Below are positions 9,239 through 54,388 of a stretch of 64,000 nucleotides of DNA, piece by piece (position 1 is the stretch's first letter; every line of letters begins with the position of its first letter). Made by a program: the position numbers and the translations under genes. The stretch covers positions 124,001 through 188,000 of the forward strand of contig NZ_CAJATU010000155.1 of NCBI RefSeq assembly GCF_903944925.1. The letters run 5' to 3'. This DNA is from an uncultured Rhodopila sp. GTDB taxonomy: Bacteria > Pseudomonadota > Alphaproteobacteria > Acetobacterales > Acetobacteraceae. The notes beneath the pieces are model-generated. The model saw only the letters and a program-made list of their open reading frames with translations, made no database searches and had not been told where the DNA came from.

Positions 9239-9322
9239 TGTGTCATGGCCCGGCCATCTACGACTGTGCCGCCATCACCACCGCAAGTCGTGGATGGCCG
9301 GAGCAAGTCCGGCCATGACACA
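9239..9322. repeat. Dispersed palindromic element, diverged copy
   Basis: Imperfect inverted repeat beginning TGTGTCATGGCC and ending GGCCATGACACA, with the inner half-sites CCGGCCATC and GATGGCCGG. It matches the element at 52633-52734 in arms and in part of the loop (CCGCAAG) but has lost about 8 bases of one arm. It fills most of the 138-bp convergent gap between ptsI and hpf and could also act as a bidirectional terminator hairpin, though there is no T-run. Confidence 0.8.
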
Positions 9323-50435: not shown

Positions 50436-51515
50436 ATGGGGGCGTATCTGCTGCGGCGGTTGTTGTTGGTGATTCCGACGTTGTTCGGGATCATTGCGAT
50501 TAACTTTTTTGTCGTACAGTTCGCCCCGGGCGGCCCGGTGGAGCAGATGATCTCTGAGCTGAAGGGTCGCGGCGGAGATGTTACCGGGCGCATGAGCGGG
50601 AGCGGGGGGGCGGAGTCGATGCCGTCGGGCGACGGCGCTTATCGTGGCGCGCGGGGCTTGGATCCGCATGTGGTTGCCGACATCAAGAAGATGTTCGGCT
50701 TCGACAAGCCGGCGCCCGAGCGGTTCGTGCTGATGCTGCGGGATTATCTGAGCTTCGATTTCGGGCGCAGCTTTTTTCGCGACGAGCCGGTGCTGCAATT
50801 GATCAAGGAGAAGATGCCGGTCTCTGTCTCGATCGGCCTTTGGTCCACGCTGCTGGTGTATTTCGTCTCGATTCCGCTGGGCATCGCCAAGGCGGTGCGG
50901 GACGGCAGCCGGTTCGACGTGGCGAGCAGTGCGGCGGTGCTGATTGGCTATGCGGTGCCGGGGTTTTTGTTCGCCATCCTGCTGGTGGTGCTGTTTGCCG
51001 GCGGCAGCTTCGTGCAGTGGTTCCCCTTGCGCGGCCTGCACAGCGCGGGAACCGAGACCTGGAGCATTCCGGCCCGCATTTTGGATTATCTCTGGCACAT
51101 GGTGCTGCCGACGGTGGCGCTGGTTGTCGGTGGGTTTGCCGGTCTGACGGTGCTGACGAAGAACTGCTTCCTGGAGGAGATCCGCAAGCAATACGTCGTC
51201 ACCGCCCGCGCCAAGGGTGCCAGCGAACAGCGCATCCTGTATCGCCACGTGTTCCGCAATGCGATGCTGCTGATCGTCGCCGGGTTTCCCTCGGCGTTCA
51301 TCGGCATGCTGTTCTCCTCCGCCTTGCTGGTGGAGATTATCTTTTCCCTCGATGGCCTCGGGCTGCTGGGGTTTGAATCGGCGATCCGGCGCGACTATCC
51401 GGTGATGTTCGGGACATTGTATATGTTCACCCTGCTCGGCCTGCTGATGCAGATCGTCGGGGACATGCTGTACACCGTGGTTGATCCGCGCATCGATTTC
51501 GAGGCCAGACAGTAG
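50436..51515 (+). CDS. yejB: Peptide ABC transporter permease YejB
   Basis: Inner-membrane permease of 359 residues with six helices, starting [37 protein letters not shown], typical of DppB/YejB. The EAA loop that docks the ATPase is present near [22 protein letters not shown] Gly/Ser/Met-rich insert follows the first helix, as in YejB. yejE starts two bases after the stop. Confidence 0.95.
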
Positions 51516-51516
51516 C

Positions 51517-52560
51517 ATGCATCTCTCGCCGCTGACGCGCCGCCGCCTGGCGATCTTCCGGGCGCATAAGCGGGGCTATTGGTCGCTGTGGATCTTCGTG
51601 GCGCTGTTTGGCGTGACACTGTTCGCCGAGTTTCTTGCCAATGACCGTCCGCTGCTGATCCGCTACGACGGGCATTGGTATGTGCCTGTGTTGCAGGACT
51701 ACAGCGAGGACACGTTCGGCTCCGACTTCCTGCCGACGGATGCGGATTATACCGAGCCGGACGTGCAGGCGGCGATCGAGGCGAAGGGCTGGATGATCTG
51801 GCCGCCGATTCCCTACAGCTACAATACGGTCGTGAAGGGCTTGCGGACGCCCGCGCCGTCGCCGCCGGACGCGCAGAACCTGCTGGGGACCGACGACCAG
51901 GCGCGAGACGTGCTGGCCCGGGTGATCTACGGGTTCCGCATTTCCGTGCTGTTCGGCTTCACCCTGACCACGATCTCCTCGGTCATCGGCATTGCCGCCG
52001 GCGCCATCCAGGGCTTTCGCGGTGGCTTGGTGGATCTGCTGTTCCAGCGTTTCATCGAGATCTGGTCGGGGATGCCGCAGCTTTATCTGCTGATCATCCT
52101 AGGCAGCATCATCACGCCGAGCTTCGGGATATTGTTGATATTTCTGCTGTTGTTCAGCTGGATGAACCTGACCGGGGTAGTGCGGGCGGAGTTCCTGCGC
52201 GGCCGCAACCTGGACTATGTGCGCGCGGCGAAAGCGCTGGGCGTCTCCGACCCGGCGGTGATGTGGCGGCACATCCTGCCCAACGCCATGGTCGCGACCC
52301 TGACGTTCCTGCCGTTCACGCTGTCAGGGTCGGTGACGATCCTCGCCAGCCTGGATTTCCTCGGCTTCGGCCTGCCGCCCGGGTCGCCGTCGCTGGGCGA
52401 ACTGGTGTCGGAGGGAAAGAACAATCTCCAGGCGCCCTGGCTGGGGATCACCGCGTTCGTGGTGCTTGGGGGATTGCTGACGCTGCTGGTGTTTGTGGGT
52501 GAGGCGGTGCGCGATGCGTTTGACCCGCGCAAGACGCCGGTGAATGGGTCGTTGAAGTGA
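51517..52560 (+). CDS. yejE: Peptide ABC transporter permease YejE
   Basis: Second permease (347 residues). Opens with SPLTRRRLAIFRAHKRGYWSLWIF and contains the YejE-type periplasmic insert (about 60-125) before the DppC-like permease domain with LGTDDQARDVLARVIYGFRIS. The EAA motif is YVRAAKALGVSDPAVMWRHILPNA. ATG 51517 is chosen since the tracked start lies within yejB. Confidence 0.95.
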   Translation: MHLSPLTRRRLAIFRAHKRGYWSLWIFVALFGVTLFAEFLANDRPLLIRYDGHWYVPVLQDYSEDTFGSDFLPTDADYTEPDVQAAIEAKGWMIWPPIPYSYNTVVKGLRTPAPSPPDAQNLLGTDDQARDVLARVIYGFRISVLFGFTLTTISSVIGIAAGAIQGFRGGLVDLLFQRFIEIWSGMPQLYLLIILGSIITPSFGILLIFLLLFSWMNLTGVVRAEFLRGRNLDYVRAAKALGVSDPAVMWRHILPNAMVATLTFLPFTLSGSVTILASLDFLGFGLPPGSPSLGELVSEGKNNLQAPWLGITAFVVLGGLLTLLVFVGEAVRDAFDPRKTPVNGSLK

Positions 52561-52632
52561 TGCCGTCGGCAAAATACGGCCGTCGGCTCGTTGTGCCCTG
52601 CGTGTCCCGGGTGCGCCACGTGCACCCAATGC

Positions 52633-52734
52633 CCTTTGTGTCATGGCCGGGCTTGGCCCGGCCATCCACGATTTTGGCTGGTTCGGCACCGCAAGCCATG
52701 GATGGCCGGGCCAAGCCCGGCCATGACACAAAGG
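52633..52734. repeat. Dispersed palindromic element with perfect 36-bp arms
   Basis: Left arm CCTTTGTGTCATGGCCGGGC.. (52633-52668) is the exact reverse complement of 52699-52734; loop is 30 bases. It lies between yejE and yejF, inside the operon. A shorter, diverged copy is at 9239-9322. The palindrome itself contains nested half-sites GGCCGGGC/GCCCGGCC. No coding capacity, so it is a REP/MITE-like element. Confidence 0.9.
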
Positions 52735-52783
52735 CGGCGGTCCATGCCCAAACAGCGGCCATTGCTCAAGCGGCCCCCGCTCC

Positions 52784-54388
<1,605 letters not shown>

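Follow-up and report, generated by a model that had tools for sequence, protein, structure and literature searches.

The yej operon contains a long, perfect palindrome between the stop codon of yejE (52560) and the ATG of yejF (52784), which raises the question of what this repeat is and what placed it there. The window, that is, the whole 64,000-nt stretch of DNA that was analysed, carries four yej genes, matched by Pfam to SBP_bac_5, BPD_transp_1 (twice) and ABC_tran. The preliminary description of this DNA had reported a palindrome with 36-bp perfect arms and a 30-base loop between yejE and yejF, and this is exact: the arms (52633-52668 and 52699-52734) are complementary at 36/36 positions and are separated by a 30-nt loop (Table 1). 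A point beyond that description is that each arm is a small hairpin in its own right, GTC-ATGGCCGGG-CTTGG-CCCGGCCAT-CCA. In the left REP, the tag TGTC (52639-52642) is followed by one strand of the stem, ATGGCCGGG (52643-52651), the loop CTTGG, the other strand of the stem, CCCGGCCAT (52657-52665), and the tail CCA. The outermost bases, CCTTTG and CAAAGG, fit a family-wide bias towards pyrimidines on the left and purines on the right; a copy-specific pairing of this outer extension was rejected (p = 0.2-0.26).

Table 1. Features of the yejE-yejF junction (positions in the window)
Feature	Position	Strand	Basis
yejE, permease, BPD_transp_1	51481..52560	+	Pfam
yejE-yejF gap, 223 nt	52561..52783	.	
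Whole palindrome, two CGTC-type REPs in inverted orientation, 36-bp perfect arms	52633..52734	.	sequence
Outer arm extension CCTTTG (partner CAAAGG, 52729-52734)	52633..52638	.	family flank bias
Left REP	52639..52668	+	layout of tag, stem and tail as in PMC3733652
Spacer, 30 nt, variant of family spacer CGACTTTGCCGCGACCAGCACCGCAAGTCG	52669..52698	.	
Right REP, same type as left REP, opposite orientation	52699..52728	-	
yejF, double ABC ATPase	52784..54388	+	Pfam

This layout is that of the CGTC REPs, which were defined by Di Nocera, De Gregorio and Rocco in 2013 and for which no associated transposase was found (PMC3733652). The repeats described here resemble them in the CGTC/TGTC tag (TGTC at yej), the 9-bp AT-initial stem, the 5-nt loop and the CCA tail, as well as in their high-copy dispersal, their inverted dimers with a conserved spacer and their mostly intergenic and mostly alphaproteobacterial distribution. 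A stem of 8-9 bp and a loop of 4-5 nt are characteristic of the class, and the tag is conserved throughout the present family. When the window was searched for the 29-nt core at up to three mismatches, three matches were found compared to 0.00 expected from shuffles. A single CGTC REP of the GGACTTGCTCC variant was observed at 9291-9319 on the minus strand. In the 7.0-Mb genome there were 89 REP sites at up to three mismatches and none for a reversed-pattern control. The palindrome is one of ~45 CGTC-type REP dimers in this genome that have in common an asymmetric spacer of roughly 30 nt. Together with further copies in related genomes and a site that is empty (see below), these numbers bear out the earlier suggestion of an interspersed mobile palindrome and contradict a one-off hairpin. 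The gene context of the REPs, as called by a simple gene finder, was unidirectional for 38, convergent for 12 and divergent for 4, with 15 inside a called ORF and 2 at a contig edge. A second, smaller dimer family, in which the spacer is shorter, at 16-19 nt, and the loops are of the GTGTC or GCGTC type, is represented by loci L076, L077, L085, L090, L093, L095 and L096 of this genome.

To what extent the long palindrome itself is conserved was assessed from base pairing. The stem pair at positions 12/18 was Watson-Crick in 117/123 monomers, in the forms G-C, A-T and C-G, compared to a shuffled mean of 52, whereas arm-arm pairing at the same site was retained in just 14/45 dimers. This indicates that the small hairpin is the conserved unit, and the long palindrome arises when both REPs happen to share one type. 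Concerted evolution of the arms was rejected, as the identity within dimers was 23.9 of 29 compared to 24.2 for permuted pairs (p = 0.94). A generally slower evolution of the arms was also rejected, since divergence over ten shared sites was 11.6% for the arms, 17.3% for the spacer and 11.7% for the flanks. The yej arms have 0/58 differences from those of one relative, G007. A comparison of L040 with L177 suggests that the dimer has opposite orientations at one and the same place in this genome and in G007.

The same dimer was found at the identical place in the yej operons of two sister species (G007 and G024), where the gaps are 193-202 nt, and the insertion is therefore older than the split of the three species. 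Most other relatives have an empty site, with a 4-bp overlap (ATGA or GTGA) of yejE and yejF, so the repeat now splits genes that once overlapped. The dimer would thus have inserted between yejE and yejF in the ancestor of the three sister species and in doing so would have abolished the overlap. Perfect arms had earlier been taken to suggest a recent insertion. This is not borne out, given the two other species with the dimer at this site, the within-dimer arm identity, which is no higher than random, and another copy in this genome (L029) that has perfect arms of 37 bp. Beyond the dimer, the gap contains 72 nt (52561-52632) and 49 nt (52735-52783). In two further relatives (G030 and G018; L111 and L112) the gap harbours another repeat, CCCTCTCCCCTCGCGGGAGAGGG..., and the junction has thus received insertions in two lineages. 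Reduced yejF expression after the insertion would be plausible, because the once overlapping start codon is now 223 nt away and behind a strong hairpin.

Such a hairpin could also act, on either strand alike, as a transcription terminator or attenuator that has been under selection inside the yej operon. The predicted fold of the palindrome transcript is very stable (-148 kcal/mol, z = -10), and its position between permease and ATPase genes would suit this role. However, neither arm is followed by a T-run, a scan for intrinsic terminators was empty at the palindrome, the same family is present at dozens of unrelated loci and the yej operons of most relatives are without the palindrome. Collectively, these results make a terminator very unlikely. 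An Rfam search returned no match.

The two-hairpin layout is also like that of REPINs, the dimers of GTAG REPs mobilised by RAYTs, and a RAYT-type transposase had been suggested from the sequence at the outset. The tag here is TGTC rather than GTAG, and no intact RAYT is encoded in this genome, where Y1_Tnp gave a single match, to a broken remnant of IS200-like appearance on a contig without detected REPs. The REP count across the genus ranged from 0 to 416, and no Y1_Tnp match was found in four REP-rich genomes (G029, 416 REPs; G030, 228; G018, 220; G007, 147). In view of the broken remnant and the absence from REP-rich relatives, a RAYT was rejected as the mobiliser, and we regard a RAYT-mobilised GTAG REP as a negligible prospect. 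In G029, the listed REPs of the 416 are mostly of a near-identical GGGCGTGTCCC type, suggesting a recent expansion.

A candidate enzyme was found inside the repeats themselves. At one locus of this genome (L069, G000:C63), two REPs of the yej type, 410 bp apart, enclose a 95-codon gene that matches the GIY-YIG family (Pfam PF01541, E = 3e-12). No other small GIY-YIG gene is present in this genome, and among the loci of this genome that were examined no other gene lay inside a pair of outward-tagged REPs spaced 150-1500 bp. The locus is syntenic in seven relatives. We surveyed 139 loci with a small GIY-YIG gene, drawn from relatives and other alphaproteobacterial genomes. Of these, 131, mostly alphaproteobacterial, had full flanks. 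REPs were detected solely by a fixed GTCA plus a 9-nt stem, in the correct orientation and within 250 bp of the gene. A REP was present upstream (+ orientation) at 87 loci, downstream (- orientation) at 89, on both sides at 64 and on either side at 112, compared to 9 upstream, 11 downstream and 0 on both sides for 1222 control windows within the same loci, all counts being non-independent because the loci are phylogenetically related. Of 247 other long ORFs located in 80 of these loci, only 1 had REPs on both sides. REPs of the opposite orientation were also enriched close to the GIY-YIG gene, being present upstream at 45 loci, downstream at 39 and on both sides at 15, as expected from whole dimers adjoining the gene. 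Among further loci of the genus, 16/18 had at least one REP. The association of GIY-YIG genes with CGTC REPs is new with respect to the open-access literature searched, and the small GIY-YIG gene between the REPs distinguishes these loci from the CGTC REPs without a transposase described in 2013 (PMC3733652).

It could be argued that the link between gene and REPs is a by-product of regulation or position, with REPs gathering round a small, dispensable gene and being mobilised by an unrelated or extinct enzyme. Di Nocera et al. proposed in 2013 that CGTC REPs were moved by an extinct or generic transposase (PMC3733652), and a detectable REP was absent at 19/131 GIY-YIG loci, which also counts against a role for the nuclease. 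Flanking on both sides at 64/131 loci is nevertheless difficult to reconcile with the values for the controls and for other ORFs, and the REP types match the nuclease, as set out next. A by-product is therefore quite unlikely.

The stems upstream and downstream of the GIY-YIG genes agreed at 4.25 of 5 positions compared to 3.34 when shuffled. On a tree of 43 nuclease proteins of the genus, the REP type changed 11 times, compared to a shuffled mean of 22.7 and a minimum of 19. G007 and G024 each encode three paralogues of the GIY-YIG nuclease, every one with a REP type of its own, and in G027, G010 and G006 the commonest REP types genome-wide are those beside the nuclease gene. The REP type follows the nuclease, even between paralogues of one genome. 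GIY-YIG genes with REPs resembling the second, short-spacer type were seen in G019 and G025 (L222 and L225). Other observations count against the nuclease. The only small GIY-YIG gene found in G029 is flanked by REPs of a non-GGGCGTGTCCC type. Being single and syntenic among close relatives, the GIY-YIG gene is not apparently freely mobile itself. Within the genus, the presence of the nuclease was weakly linked to the number of REPs (p = 0.03, with three negatives only).

The dimers and the gene-bearing element also have ends in common. When the spacer consensus is compared with the GIY-YIG element of the same type, its first 22 nt agree with the internal left end at 18/22 positions, including 10/14 positions beyond the common CGACTTTG (0.1-1.3% of shuffles), and its final bases agree with the right end. 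The REPs of G027 are of another type, and there the match, judged by eye, is between the spacers and the right end of the GIY-YIG element of G027, over some 50 nt. These shared ends would fit an internal deletion from the gene-bearing element and, equally, the insertion of a gene into a dimer.

GIY-YIG enzymes include known homing nucleases. The gene could be a passenger of the homing type, for which REP dimers are the target of insertion, the dimers having spread by other means. A spacer made up of the two element ends is as compatible with insertion into the dimer as with deletion from the element, and the REPs usually outnumber the nuclease. Against this, paralogues within a single genome pair with different REP types, the type tracks the nuclease tree, no other enzyme candidate was found and the REP-rich genomes are without Y1_Tnp. 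A homing passenger is therefore improbable.

We favour, at roughly two chances in three, the reading that the yej palindrome is a non-autonomous CGTC REP dimer, REPIN- or MITE-like, which shares its ends with a REP-nuclease-REP element and for which the GIY-YIG nuclease is the candidate mobiliser. The longer element, a REP, the GIY-YIG nuclease gene and a second REP, is single-copy in this genome and has its terminal sequence in common with the dimers. The nuclease, of ~95 aa, may recognise the CGTC tag and hairpin and cut or nick there, and repair or replication would then copy the dimer to new sites. The comparisons establish the repeat family and its copies, the shared insertion and the empty site, the conservation of the hairpin, the association of gene and REPs, the matching of types and the common ends; cleavage of DNA, mobilisation, the direction of descent and an effect on yejF are inferred. 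Judged from these sequence comparisons, the small GIY-YIG nuclease is the best candidate for an enzyme that mobilises or processes CGTC REPs, in a role that would be comparable to that of RAYTs for GTAG REPs.

As in the REPIN-RAYT system, there are many short inverted hairpin dimers and a few-copy enzyme gene with REPs of the matching type on its flanks. The differences are the tag (TGTC, not GTAG) and the enzyme (GIY-YIG, not the Y1_Tnp/IS200-like RAYT, an HUH tyrosine transposase). Like MITEs, the dimers are non-autonomous, have terminal inverted repeats and, in two lineages, share their ends with a gene-bearing element. Unlike MITEs, there is no classical transposase here. Extra non-repeat sequence masks the yej junction, such that no target-site duplication is definable. 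The protein itself is like the UPF0213 / PF01541 GIY-YIG nucleases (PDB 1zg2) in being single-domain, ~95 aa long and conserved in its Y, R, H and E residues; its REP association sets it apart from these nucleases as described in the open-access literature searched. In that literature (preprints and subscription papers lay outside the scope), we found no report of a GIY-YIG/REP pairing, and the sole co-mention of the two was a Moraxella gene list.

The same REP flanking was found beyond the genus in records of S. meliloti, Azospirillum lipoferum 4B, Sphingobium, Shinella, Rhizobium and Aeromonas caviae. In Azospirillum lipoferum 4B AZO_p3 (L406), the REP-flanked GIY-YIG gene sits between sufB and sufC. 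In Neisseria, dRS3-like repeats surround a GIY-YIG gene, an adjacency that could be due to chance because REPs are abundant there. No REPs of the expected kind were detected at the GIY-YIG gene in the records of Novosphingobium pNL2, Planktothrix, Vibrio and Spirosoma, and in the Photobacterium record REPs were only distant from the gene. It seems somewhat more likely than not that CGTC REPs, including dRS3-like repeats outside the Alphaproteobacteria, are selfish or domesticated elements copied by dedicated small GIY-YIG nucleases, one hairpin type each, and would represent a second, independent solution of the REPIN-RAYT kind.

CGTC REPs are common in Alphaproteobacteria, and what moves them was left open by the 2013 survey because no transposase gene lay beside them. 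If the proposed role is correct, the cognate GIY-YIG nuclease would provide a concrete, testable enzyme for these repeats. It would also account for a large set of multi-copy genes annotated merely as 'GIY-YIG nuclease family protein', and would mean that REP-type repeats have evolved alongside two unrelated nuclease families.
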